A DNA stretch of 51,131 bases from contig CALYZE010000010.1 in the NCBI GenBank assembly GCA_945607605.1, positions 1 through 51,131 on the forward strand. The letters are read 5' to 3'. The notes beneath the pieces were generated by a model. It was not told the DNA's origin and made no database searches. It was given only the letters and a program-made list of their open reading frames with translations. The DNA is from an uncultured Bacteroides sp. GTDB lineage: Bacteria > Bacteroidota > Bacteroidia > Bacteroidales > Bacteroidaceae. The position numbers and the translations under genes are program-made. Shown here in pieces: positions 3,437 to 51,131 of this stretch (position 1 is the stretch's first letter; the number at the start of each line of letters is the position of its first letter).

Positions 3437-3499
3437 AAGTTTGTATCTTTAAAGGATATACTGACTAAACAGCAAAAAGAATGCCAAAGGTAGGTGATT

Positions 3500-39250: not shown

Positions 39251-41845
39251 TTAGTTCTTGAATGTCAATCCGTAATTGGAGCTGTTTGCATCCACAATGA
39301 TCGATTGGCTACGATCTATTTCTTGTGCTAACAACTTCTTGGACAAATCATTCAGTAAATAGTGTTGAATTGCACGTTTTACCGGACGAGCTCCAAACTC
39401 GGGTTCATAGCCTGTATTAGCAAGAAATTCGATAGCCGTATCGGTCAATAGAAGGTTCACACCATTGGCTGAAAGCATCTTTTGTAGGCTCTTAATTTGA
39501 AGAACTACAATCTGCTTGATTTCCTTTTCCGTCAGCGGTAAGAACATAATTGTTTCATCGATGCGATTTAGGAATTCCGGCCGAATATTCTTTTTCAGCA
39601 TATTCATCACTTCTTTTTTGGTTTCCGCTACTACGACGTCCTTATTAGAATGGCTCAGTTTTTCCATTTGGCTTTGGATATAGCCGCTACCCATATTGGA
39701 AGTCATGATGATGATGGTATTCTTGAAGTTTACCGTACGCCCTTTGTTATCTGTCAGACGCCCATCATCAAGTACCTGCAACAGAATGTTGAAAACATCC
39801 GGATGCGCTTTCTCTATTTCATCGAACAAGATGACAGAATAAGGTTTGCGTCGTACGGCCTCCGTCAACTGACCGCCTTCATCGTAGCCTACATATCCCG
39901 GAGGTGCTCCGACCAAACGAGAAACACTGTGCTTTTCTTGATATTCACTCATATCTATACGAGTCATCATGGTCTCATCATCAAAGAGGAATTCAGCCAA
40001 GGCCTTTGCCAATTCAGTTTTTCCTACACCGGTAGTTCCCAAAAAGAGGAATGAACCGATAGGACGCTTCGGGTCTTGCAATCCGGCACGGCTACGGCGT
40101 ACAGCATCACTGACTGCTTCAATAGCTTCATTCTGACCGATTACACGCAGGTGCAACTCATCCTCCAGATGTAGCAACTTGTCTTTTTCACTTTGAAGCA
40201 TTTTGCTGACCGGTATACCCGTCCAACGGGATACTACATCTGCAATATCTTCAGCATCGACTTCCTCTTTAATCATTGCCTTGTCGCCTTGCATCTCATG
40301 CAATCTTTGCTTTGTTTCTTCGATTTCGTCGTTTAAAGCTTGCAGTTTTCCGTAGCGAATTTCGGCAACTTTGCCGTAGTCTCCCTCACGTTCAGCTTTG
40401 TCAGCTTCAAACTTTAGGTTTTCGATTTCGACTTTATTTTGCTGAATTTTGTTGACCAAGGTTTTCTCACTTTGCCATTTAGCTTTGTAAGAACTTTCTT
40501 GTTCTTTTAGTTCGGCAAGTTCTTTACCGATTTGTTCCAGCTTGAATTGATCGTTTTCACGCTTGATGGCTTCGCGCTCGATCTCCAACTGTTTGATTTT
40601 GCGCGATATTTCATCCAACTCTTCTGGTACGGAATCAACTTCCATACGAAGTTTGGCAGCCGCTTCATCCATAAGATCGATAGCTTTATCCGGTAGAAAA
40701 CGTTCGGTGATGTAGCGGTTGCTAAGTTCTACGGCAGCAATGATAGCATCATCTTTAATCCGGACGTGATGATGGTTTTCGTAACGTTCCTTTAAACCAC
40801 GCAAGATAGAAATGGTACTCAGTGTATCCGGTTCATTTACCATAACGATTTGAAAACGACGTTCCAATGCTTTGTCCTTTTCGAAATATTTTTGATATTC
40901 ATCCAACGTAGTGGCCCCTATACTTCTTAGTTCGCCACGTGCCAAAGCTGGCTTTAAGATGTTGGCGGCATCCATGGCACCTTCCCCTTTACCGGCACCT
41001 ATCAGTGTGTGAATTTCATCGATAAATAAGATGAGGTCTCCCTCTGATTTCTTCACCTCGTTGATAACTGCTTTCAGACGCTCTTCGAACTCACCCTTAT
41101 ATTTGGCACCAGCAATCAGTGCCCCCATATCCAAAGAATAAACTTGTTTGTTTTTTAGGTTTTCGGGAACATCGCCACGGAGAATACGATGTGCCAGACC
41201 TTCTACGATAGCGGTCTTACCCGTACCCGGCTCACCTATTAATATCGGATTGTTTTTGGTGCGTCGACTCAAGATTTGTAGTACGCGTCTGATTTCTTCA
41301 TCACGACCAATTACTGGATCCAATTTTCCGCTTCGGGCTGCTTCGTTCAGATTGATAGCATATTTTTCCAATGCCTGATAGGTTTCCTCGCTGGATTGTG
41401 ACGTTACTTTTTCACCTTTTCGCAATTCTGTGATGGCGCTACGCAGTTCTTTGTCCGTCATTCCTGCATCTTTCAAGATGTTGGCAGCGGTACTTTTCAC
41501 ATTCAGTAGTCCCAACAATATCGGTTCCAGTGAAACAAATTCATCATTCATCTCTTTGGAGTACTGTGTTGCTTTCTGCAGTACCTCATTGGCTTCTCGG
41601 CTGAGATAAGCCTCTCCACCTGAAACTTTCGGCAAGGAATCAATTTGTTTATCAACGACGAGAGCAATTTGTTGTCTATTCAGTGACAACTTTTGAAAGA
41701 TAAAGTTGGTCACATTTTCGCCAACTTTCATTACGCTTTGAAGCAGATGTACCGGTTCAATAGCCTGTTGTCCTCGGTTTTGTACCAGGTTTACAGCCTC
41801 CTGCACTGCCTCTTGCGCTTTAATAGTAAAATTGTTAAAGTTCAT
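39251..41845 (-). CDS. clpB: ATP-dependent disaggregase ClpB
   Basis: Hsp104-type AAA+ chaperone that threads aggregated proteins through a hexameric ring, working with DnaK. The 864 residues contain an N-terminal Clp domain (to about 145), first AAA+ module with [13 protein letters not shown] near residue 205 and [13 protein letters not shown], the long coiled-coil middle domain (about 400-525) that defines ClpB, and a second AAA+ module with [13 protein letters not shown] and [25 protein letters not shown] precedes the ATG, a clear ribosome-binding site. Upstream is a sigma-54-like promoter instead of TAnnTTTG, listed separately. dnaK is also in this window. Confidence 0.98.
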
Positions 41846-41893
41846 ATGTTTTTCTCCTTTCTATTTTTATCAGTTTTATAACATTTGGCAAAA

Positions 41894-41910
41894 GGCAAAA
41901 GATTTGCCAA
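41894..41910 (-). promoter_or_regulatory. Candidate sigma-54 (-24/-12) promoter of clpB
   Basis: On the minus strand TTGGCAAATCTTTTGCC: the -24 GG (41908-41907) and the -12 GC (41896-41895) are exactly 12 bases apart, as sigma-54 requires. It matches TGGCAC-N5-TTGC with one change (A for the final C of the -24 box). Predicted start near 41883, giving a leader of about 38 bases. Confidence 0.55.
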
Positions 41911-41922
41911 GGGTCTATTTCG

Positions 41923-41965
41923 GACATTTTTGCAGTTTATATAAAATATATAATGTCAAAATGTC
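41923..41965 (-). promoter_or_regulatory. Candidate activator sites upstream of the clpB promoter
   Basis: Plus-strand GACATTTT (41923-41930) and AAAATGTC (41958-41965) are perfect inverted copies, with a related ATAATGTC at 41950-41957 directly before the second. They sit 13 to 55 bases upstream of the -24 element and share the word AAAnTGTC with the region upstream of dnaK. Confidence 0.4.
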
Positions 41966-48800: not shown

Positions 48801-49096
48801 CTTTTATAGGCTTTTTTCTTGTTTACTCTGCATGGCAAAGCTGCCTGCTATACAAGCAAGGATTTAGAATATAACTTTATTTCTAAAAATGAAGGTTCTG
48901 TTTGTAAGAATCAAACCTTTGTTTTAAGAAATGATAGGGAGAAAGGAAATTATTCTTCGGTAGGGAAGTAGCTTTTATCCAGTAGACTTTGGGAAAAATG
49001 AAAGAACAGATAGGGGATGGCAGTCAGGAACGGATGAGTCTGTTAAGCGAAAAGCTTTTTGCCACATGTTTCTGATAACAATCATCTGTTTCTGCC

Positions 49097-49116
49097 AAAC
49101 TGTCAGCTAAACTGTC
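49097..49116 (+). promoter_or_regulatory. Direct repeat of AAACTGTC upstream of dnaK
   Basis: AAACTGTC occurs at 49097-49104 and 49109-49116, 12 bases apart and ending 32 bases before the -24 element. The same AAAnTGTC word lies upstream of the clpB promoter, so it is a candidate activator site. Confidence 0.4.
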
Positions 49117-49148: not shown

Positions 49149-49164
49149 TTGGCACAAGGTTTGT
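49149..49164 (+). promoter_or_regulatory. Candidate sigma-54 (-24/-12) promoter of dnaK
   Basis: TTGGCACAAGGTTTGT: a perfect YTGGCAC -24 box, five bases, and TTGT in place of TTGC at -12, with the required 12-base phasing and T-run after it. Predicted start near 49176, leader about 58 bases. No TAnnTTTG with a -33 box was seen nearby. Confidence 0.6.
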
Positions 49165-49233: not shown

Positions 49234-51131
49234 ATGGGAAAAATTATTGGTATTGACTTAGGAACTACAAACTCTTGCGTTTCCGTATTCGAAGGAAACG
49301 AACCTGTAGTAATTGCAAATAGTGAAGGTAAACGCACTACTCCTTCTGTAGTGGCATTTGTTGATGGCGGCGAACGTAAAGTAGGTGATCCTGCTAAACG
49401 TCAAGCTATTACAAATCCAGTAAGAACAGTATTTTCCATCAAACGTTTCATGGGTGAGAATTGGGAACAAGTGCAAAAAGAAACTGCTCGTGTACCTTAC
49501 AAGGTAGTAAAGGGTGACAACAATACTCCGCGTGTAGATATTGACGGACGTCTTTATACTCCACAGGAAATATCTGCAATGATTTTGCAGAAAATGAAAA
49601 AAACTGCCGAAGATTATTTGGGACAAGAGGTCACGGAAGCCGTGATCACTGTTCCGGCTTATTTCTCTGACTCTCAACGTCAGGCAACCAAAGAGGCTGG
49701 TCAGATTGCTGGTCTTGAAGTAAAACGTATTGTTAATGAGCCAACTGCTGCAGCTCTTGCGTATGGTATCGACAAGGCACATAAAGATATGAAAGTTGCT
49801 GTGTTCGACCTTGGTGGTGGTACTTTCGATATTTCTATTCTCGAATTTGGTGGCGGTGTGTTCGAAGTATTGTCAACCAACGGTGATACTCACTTGGGTG
49901 GTGATGACTTTGACCAAGTTATAATCGACTGGTTGGTTCAGGAGTTCAAGAGCGAAGAAGGTGCTGATTTGACTCAGGATCCAATGGCTGTTCAACGTCT
50001 GAAAGAGGCTGCTGAGAAAGCTAAAATCGAATTGTCTTCTTCTACCAGCACTGAAATCAACTTACCGTACATTATGCCGGTGGGTGGTGTACCCAAGCAC
50101 TTGGTTAAAACGTTGTCTCGTGCTAAGTTTGAGGCTTTATCTCACAGTTTGATTCAAGCTTGTCTTGAGCCTTGTAAGAAAGCGATGAGCGATGCTGGTT
50201 TAGGCAACTCTGATATTGATGAGGTGATTTTGGTAGGTGGTTCTTCTCGTATTCCCGCCATCCAGAAATTGGTAGAAGATTTCTTCGGTAAAGTACCTTC
50301 CAAGGGAGTTAATCCGGATGAGGTAGTAGCTGTAGGTGCTGCTGTTCAGGGTGCTGTTTTAACAGATGAGATCAAGGGTGTTGTGTTGCTGGATGTTACT
50401 CCGCTGTCTATGGGTATTGAAACGATGGGTGGTGTGATGACTAAGTTGATTGACTCCAACACTACGATTCCATGCAAGAAGAGTGAAACATTCTCTACTG
50501 CTGCTGACAATCAAACAGAAGTAACTATCCATGTGTTGCAGGGTGAACGCCCAATGGCCACTCAGAATAAATCAATCGGTCAGTTTAACTTGACAGGTAT
50601 TGCCCCGGCACGTCGTGGTGTTCCTCAGATTGAAGTAACCTTTGATATTGATGCTAACGGTATCTTGAAAGTATCTGCTAAGGATAAAGCTACCGGTAAG
50701 GAACAGGTTATTCGCATTGAAGCTTCCAGCGGTTTGAGCAAGGAAGAGATTGAAAAGATGAAAGCTGAAGCAGAATCTAATGCTGAATCAGATAAGAAGG
50801 AACGTGAGAAAGTAGACAAAATGAACCAAGCTGACTCAATGATTTTCACTACAGAGAATCAACTGACAGAATTAGGTGATAAGTTGCCTGCTGACAAGAA
50901 AGCTCCAATAGAAGCTGCTTTGCAGAAACTGAAAGATGCTCATAAGGCTGAGGATTTAACTGCTATTGACTCTGCTATGGCTGAGTTGAACACAGCTTTT
51001 CAAGCTGCTAGTGCTGAAATGTATGCTCAGAGCGGAGCACAAGCTGGTCCTGATATGAATGCTGGGCAGCAACAAGAGGATGCTCAAGGTGACAATAAGC
51101 ATGGAGATAATGTGCAGGATGCGGACTTTGA
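49234..51131 (+). CDS. dnaK: Chaperone DnaK (Hsp70), 3' end cut by the window
   Basis: Main cytosolic Hsp70. From ATG 49234 the frame stays open for 632 codons to the window edge. The ATPase domain starts [20 protein letters not shown] and contains [33 protein letters not shown] and [15 protein letters not shown]; the substrate domain has [20 protein letters not shown]. The tail is Gln/Asp-rich and ends in QDADFE, close to the usual end of the family, so only a few residues are missing. Its promoter region looks sigma-54 dependent (listed separately). grpE and dnaJ are not adjacent upstream. Confidence 0.98.

Follow-up and report, generated by a model that had tools for sequence, protein, structure and literature searches.

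The region upstream of clpB raises the question of whether the sigma-54-like element found there is a working promoter and, if it is, which genes share it and which activator opens it. The window (the whole stretch of DNA analysed, 51,131 nucleotides from an uncultured Bacteroides sp.) also carries dnaK, and a preliminary description had proposed that RpoN co-controls the two genes. A fixed -24/-12 geometry is the hallmark of sigma-54 promoters, and sigma-54 requires an AAA+ activator. The reading that we favour, with a probability of about 0.82, is that the clpB promoter is a sigma-54 promoter of a class-wide heat-shock regulon, driven by the activator (EBP) encoded between pdxA and lptE and acting at the palindrome GNCA-N3-TGNC. 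Throughout, 'class' refers to the class of the genome from which the window comes, presumably Bacteroidia in GTDB.

Promoter elements upstream of clpB and dnaK

The clpB product scores 1338.6 bits against the NCBIfam model TIGR03346 (chaperone_ClpB), above the cut-off, and is 92% identical to Bacteroides rodentium ClpB across residues 1-268. Upstream of the gene, the minus strand from 41910 to 41894 reads TTGGCAAATCTTTTGCC, in which GG and GC begin 12 bases apart (GG-N10-GC) and a TTGC box is present, as the preliminary description had stated; the -24 GG and the -12 G have the fixed GG-N10-G spacing of a sigma-54-dependent promoter. The element proper, TTGGCAAATCTTTTGC (41910-41895, minus strand), lies 50 bp 5' of the clpB ATG at 41845, and from the C at -12 transcription is predicted to begin near 41883, in agreement with the earlier estimate. 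The like site claimed for dnaK is also present, as TTGGCACAAGGTTTGT, although its -12 box is TTGT. The features discussed below are as follows.

39251..41845, minus strand: clpB, an open reading frame of 864 residues
41854..41860, minus strand: Shine-Dalgarno-like AAAGGAG, read in the sequence 5' of clpB
41882..41884, minus strand: predicted transcription start, about 41883, placed from the -12 position
41895..41910, minus strand: -24/-12 element TTGGCAAATCTTTTGC, with the same spacing conserved 5' of clpB across Bacteroidota
41923..41933, minus strand: proximal palindrome GCAAAAATGTC, degenerate (one mismatch to GNCA-N3-TGNC), beginning 24 bp 5' of the T of TGG
41955..41965, minus strand: distal palindrome GACATTTTGAC, motif GNCA-N3-TGNC, beginning 56 bp 5' of the T of TGG
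49094..49104, plus strand: dnaK palindrome GCCAAACTGTC, 56 bp 5' of TGG
49106..49116, plus strand: degenerate dnaK palindrome GCTAAACTGTC, 44 bp 5' of TGG
49149..49164, plus strand: dnaK element TTGGCACAAGGTTTGT, with its TGG 84 bp 5' of the dnaK ATG and a -12 box of TTGT, not TTGC
49234..51129, plus strand: dnaK, continuing past the end of the window

Bacteroidia are said to make little use of Shine-Dalgarno sequences. The AAAGGAG upstream of clpB nevertheless recurs before clpB in a number of related loci.

Judged from the sequence of the window alone, the clpB site would be only suggestive. Allowing one mismatch, TGGCA-N6-TTGC matches the window 22 times against a shuffle mean of 14.6, and 6 of 100 shuffles reach 22; the earlier opinion that such sites at both chaperone genes were unlikely to be due to chance is therefore poorly served by window statistics and draws its strength from conservation. 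The whole genome (2.65 Mb) contains 23 exact matches to TTGGCA-N6-TTGC, compared with three for the reversed pattern, and 19 of these fall inside open frames of at least 100 residues. The bare pattern thus mostly returns coding noise in this genome. The four matches that lie outside open frames and upstream of a gene precede clpB, grpE-dnaJ, a TolC-like gene and a TPR gene. The last of these is in the window, where an exact TTGGCATTCTTTTTGC (3472-3487, minus strand) stands 36 bp 5' of the gene for a 732-residue TPR protein; GNCA-N3-TGNC is absent from the 264 bp 5' of this gene, so the site could be a chance match or the target of another activator.

Conservation of the clpB element

A total of 80 clpB loci were found, of which 79 were used (L046, with less than 100 bp of upstream sequence, was left out). 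As the control set we used 425 upstream regions belonging to the remaining genes of these loci. TGGNA-N6-TTG is present 5' of clpB at 50 of the 79 Bacteroidota loci and in nine of the 425 controls, with a mean of 1.1 per 79 in dinucleotide shuffles. The shorter GGNA-N6-TTG is present at 66 of 79 loci and in 21 of 425 controls (shuffle mean 3.9 per 79), leaving 13 loci at which even this form is missing. The spacing is specific: with spacers of 4, 5, 7 and 8 bases the element was found at 1, 0, 1 and 0 of the 79 loci, respectively. This comparison of genomes places the conservation of the element far beyond chance, and it is conservation that decides the status of the site: the clpB switch is in all likelihood a genuine sigma-54 promoter. 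The TTGC that had been called perfect is present at the clpB of the window but is not the usual -12 form, which among the 50 promoters is TTGA in 29, TTGT in 11, TTGC in seven and TTGG in three.

One locus in the set (L069) is on a contig titled as a Thermoproteota archaeon. Its ClpB is 62% identical to the query, and the bin is probably mislabelled.

A phased palindrome upstream of the promoter

The palindrome GNCA-N3-TGNC, typically GACATTTTGTC, occurs in 54 of the 79 clpB upstream regions and in 17 of the 425 controls; it was not found within 200 bp at the other 25 loci. Changing the spacer to N1, N2, N4 or N5 leaves only 1, 3, 2 and 0 of the 79 loci, respectively. For 51 clpB promoters of the TGG form, the 135 bp upstream hold 48 palindromes in all and the 150 bp downstream hold none. 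The clpB of the window has two copies 32 bp apart, the proximal one degenerate, and the B. rodentium locus (L025) has an intact GACAATTTGTC at both places. The other genes of the same genome have palindromes at 45 bp from TGG with a poor copy at 23 bp (groES), at 56 bp (grpE) and at 24 bp (htpG).

When the distances from the first base of the palindrome to the T of TGG were pooled for clpB, dnaK, grpE and groES (n = 132), 24-25 bp was the commonest value (59 of 132), with further peaks at 34-35, 44-46, 55-56, 64-67, 76-78 and 86-88 bp. When the period was allowed to range from 5 to 20 bp, the fit was best at 10.45 bp with a vector length R of 0.87, a value reached by none of 500 uniform nulls; this fit took in every palindrome within 135 bp, one promoter often contributing several, and related species do not count as independent. 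The vector length is 0.84 for dnaK alone (n = 28) and 0.94 for groES alone (n = 17). Fitted on its own, grpE favours a period of 15.95 bp because nearly all of its sites are at 24-25 bp. At groES, 14 of the 30 loci have no palindrome within 135 bp of the promoter. The pattern was first spotted by eye in the clpB set, and dnaK, grpE, groES and the genome scan described below are therefore the more independent tests.

The dyad is conserved, phased and found upstream only, and it may be an enhancer or upstream activating site. Its commonest position would be about -50 to -40 relative to the predicted start, which is close for an enhancer, and the stepwise phasing would fit a protein that touches the polymerase directly or through a very short loop.

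Extent of the probable regulon in the class

The remaining 28 genomes of the class set encode orthologs of the DnaK of the window (70-76% identity), and the promoter element accompanies the gene: NGGNA-N6-TTG precedes dnaK in all 29 genomes, as TGGNA-N6-TTG in 27 and as CGGCA-N6-TTG in the other two. In the genome of the window itself the element also stands 5' of grpE, htpG and groES (the last with a weak -12 box), and rpoN is present, with three Sigma54 domains within one protein of 496 residues. The grpE element was found by script in 24 of the 29 genomes and with fixed windows in 27; the automatic choice of start was wrong at several grpE loci, and the remaining five, read by eye from the right start, have the element or a variant of it (weaker variants only in L193 and L201). 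For groES the -12 rule was loosened after the data had been seen: strict TTG gave 2 of 28 loci, whereas TGG[CT]A combined with a less stringent -12 box was found at 27 of 30, against a shuffle mean of 1.5 and a maximum of five, and wrong spacers of 4, 5, 7 and 8 gave 9, 0, 8 and 4 of 30. With the element at 50 of 79 clpB loci and at dnaK in 29 of 29 genomes, and with rpoN present, the comparison favours the idea of an RpoN regulon shared by ClpB and DnaK.

A combined search for palindrome and promoter in 60 class genomes gave 87 matches in 45 genomes, compared with four for the reversed pattern. In a follow-up sample of 30 of the 87 matches, one per genome, 28 were intergenic and two lay inside open frames. 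The downstream gene was grpE in eight cases, htpG in six, lon in three, dnaK and hsp20 in two each and clpB in one, so that classical chaperones or proteases account for 22 of the 30; the others include two thioredoxin genes, one gene with TerB and DnaJ domains and three matches for which no gene was found. Pfam bears out all 25 gene families; one of these genes (L169) matches Clp_N and AAA and was named ClpB by eye. The match sampled from the genome of the window is htpG. The concentration at chaperone genes anticipated in the preliminary description is thus seen at grpE, htpG and hsp20 genes when the palindrome is included, but not with the bare pattern, and the weaker -12 box of groES explains its absence from the sample.

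The two thioredoxin matches come from two genomes (L173 and L175, identified by Pfam). The gene with TerB and DnaJ domains (L163) may encode a further co-chaperone of the regulon.

Matches to rpoN were found in 388 of 396 class genomes. The eight genomes without a match were considered as a natural experiment and rejected as such: the EBP is retained in all eight, and in four (L278, L281, L283 and L284) dnaK still has a TGG-form site no more than 70 bp from its start. Among the other four, the only such site is at -172 in one (L282), one has the AGG form only (L287), one has its dnaK cut by a contig end (L286), and from one no DnaK ortholog was recovered. The missing rpoN genes are probably assembly gaps. 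At dnaK, one of the eight (G152) lacks a TGG-form site within 200 bp, and a genome in which rpoN is present (G142) lacks even NGGNA-N6-TTG.

A candidate activator

The genome of the window encodes four proteins with strong PF00158 matches, three of which carry a receiver domain (Response_reg). The fourth, without a receiver, is the candidate EBP, and its gene lies between pdxA and lptE (neighbours annotated by eye):

G000:C23:15428-16681, minus strand: candidate EBP gene, PF00158 protein without receiver

The protein belongs to the EBP family by its matches to PF00158 (Sigma54_activat, E = 1.4e-66) and HTH_8 (E = 1.2e-13). The AAA+ domain starts at residue 15, a Fis-type helix-turn-helix stands at the end, and there is no match to Response_reg. 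The sigma-54 contact loop reads GAFTGA; among 41 orthologs it is GSFTGA in 19, GAFTGA in 18, GSFTSA in two, GAYTGA in one and GAFTNA in one. One of the two GSFTSA loops belongs to the ortholog in the smallest genome discussed below (G139, L277).

An ortholog was found in all 29 class genomes (E = 1.8e-132 or better) and in all 12 genomes of a second set, one genome being repeated. In 20 of the 29, from seven of ten families, the gene is followed on its own strand by groES at a distance of 1.7-3.7 kb; this linkage is absent in nine, among them the genome of the window. The recognition helix IS[EQ]RTLYRK is present in 41 of 41 orthologs while whole-protein identity falls to about 50%, as would be expected if the operator were shared.

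In two genomes, G115 (2.0 Mb) and G139 (0.5 Mb, a single contig, 93% complete), the receiver-less protein is the only EBP match. The dnaK of G115 is preceded by CGGCACGGTGATTGA and its grpE by a weaker variant. G139 contains seven copies of TGGCA-N6-TTG (control, one), six of them within an open frame on either strand and the seventh 63 bp 5' of dnaK. The best palindrome-like site at this dnaK has one mismatch and is off phase (59 bp), which makes the elimination of other activators strong for the protein and not for the palindrome in that genome. Taken together, the genome comparison indicates that one receiver-less EBP is the likely regulator of the heat-shock set. Both the palindrome and this activator go beyond what the preliminary description saw.

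Proposed mechanism and alternatives

In the proposed mechanism, sigma-54 RNA polymerase would wait in a closed complex on TTGGCAAATCTTTTGC. The dedicated AAA+ EBP would bind one or two GNCA-N3-TGNC palindromes upstream, set on one fixed, polymerase-facing side of the helix and most often adjoining the -24 element, and its hydrolysis of ATP would open the complex. The same layout would drive dnaK, grpE-dnaJ, groES-groEL and htpG in the same genome. Protein-folding stress may free or activate the EBP, and titration of the EBP by chaperones is conceivable because it has no receiver domain. PspA binds PspF, and this model of control by a bound partner is a reasonable guess for the EBP. By analogy, the heat-shock response of the class might consist of an ATP-driven, receiver-less sigma-54 activator at phase-locked sites, restrained by the chaperones that it induces much as PspA restrains PspF, with no heat-shock sigma factor or repressor; we put this wider picture forward only tentatively.

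The sigma-54 promoters could be real and the palindrome bind some other protein, for example a heat-labile repressor, with one or more EBPs acting without it. Enhancers usually lie at -80 to -150, and the commonest palindrome, 24 bp 5' of that T of TGG, is closer than these textbook cases; dnaK of G139, moreover, keeps its -24/-12 element with a degenerate palindrome only. Steps of about one turn from 24 to nearly 100 bp would nevertheless suit an activator acting through a short loop better than a repressor, the copies 32 bp apart in L025 and in the clpB of the window resemble the sites of NtrC-type activators, and the EBP adjoins groES in 20 of 29 genomes, all of which makes binding by another protein unlikely. 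It is also rather improbable that a different EBP, or separate EBPs for the individual genes, drive the regulon. Such a division would fit the four EBPs of the genome and the suggestion, in the main text of PMC9723704, that distinct activators may lie behind the co-expression clusters. It fits less well with G115 and G139, which show only the receiver-less EBP, and with the other three EBPs of the genome being response regulators. A sigma-54 promoter near one of these receiver-type EBPs (L016) carries two copies of a different repeat, TGTCCGNAAATGAACA, and lacks GNCA-N3-TGNC over 200 bp.

A chance match, a hairpin, a housekeeping promoter or HrcA/CIRCE control of clpB seems very improbable. 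The site does overlap an inverted repeat, TTGGCAAA...TTTGCCAA, and the statistics of the single sequence are weak, but the element is conserved across genomes while the outer inverted repeat is not retained in L025 or L027. None of the regions upstream of 78 clpB genes contains the housekeeping pattern TTG-N17-23-TAnnTTTG (mean in shuffles, 1.0). CIRCE (TTAGCACTC-N9-GAGTGCTAA), allowing up to four mismatches, was found at none of 166 loci (78 clpB, 29 dnaK, 30 groES and 29 grpE) compared with one in one shuffle round, and membership of an HrcA/CIRCE regulon was rejected on this count.

In L016 (positions 1349-1548) and L105 (contig C27 of the genome of the window) TTGGCACGGTCTTTGC precedes a TolC-like gene, slightly upstream of a receiver-type EBP. 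With its two TGTCCGNAAATGAACA copies in place of the heat-shock palindrome, this is perhaps a self-regulated envelope operon.

Relation to known systems

The core idea, sigma-54 at chaperone genes, is already published for relatives. In Flavobacterium psychrophilum, mapped starts with a sigma-54 (SM4) motif are given in the main text of PMC9723704 for GroESL, Lon, DnaK, GrpE-DnaJ, HtpG, Skp and ClpB. The same text places ClpB in co-expression cluster B415 and DnaK, GrpE, GroES and HtpG in B254, a separation that counts against one shared regulon, and it leaves the activators open, noting three PF00158 proteins. It treats one species, and the terms 'palindrom' and 'upstream activating' have no occurrence in it. 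Across Bacteroidota, predicted sigma-54 promoters are described as enriched at GroEL, IbpA, GroES, GrpE, DnaJ and DnaK in the main text of PMC12316311, which, citing a 2009 PNAS paper, describes the grpE and groES genes of named species as dependent on sigma-54. No assignment of an activator was found in that text; the terms 'UAS' and 'upstream activator' and the name clpB do not occur in it, and COG0542 (the Clp group) is listed. The term Bacteroidetes has no occurrence in PMC3162934, a comparative paper of earlier date. In the main texts of the open-access literature searched, no mention was found of the palindrome, its phasing or the EBP as a heat-shock activator.

Bacteroidia are abundant gut and environmental bacteria whose chaperone induction is little covered in the open-access papers searched, and the comparison made here yields one candidate regulator gene, one operator sequence and one spacing rule. 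Sigma-54, usually a sigma factor for special tasks, would here run core protein quality control, and it is retained in a genome as small as 0.5 Mb.

The same kinds of chaperone genes are coordinated elsewhere by RpoH (sigma-32) and by HrcA/CIRCE. These differ from the candidate system in the sigma family or in using a repressor, and have no ATP-driven activator. PspF is closer in domain plan: like the EBP, it joins an AAA+ domain to a Fis-type helix-turn-helix and has no N-terminal regulatory domain, and its solved chain matches EBP residues 14-241 (E = 5.7e-58), although FleQ and NtrC chains match better. The likeness goes no further than the domain plan, as the EBP scores 269.0 bits against TIGR02974, for which the cut-off is 443.55. 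The EBP would also differ in regulating chaperones and not psp genes, and it has about 107 residues between the AAA+ lid and the helix-turn-helix. In L107 this segment spans residues ~268-374, is partly conserved (er..lyk.lfd...d...lK) and is a candidate signal-input region.
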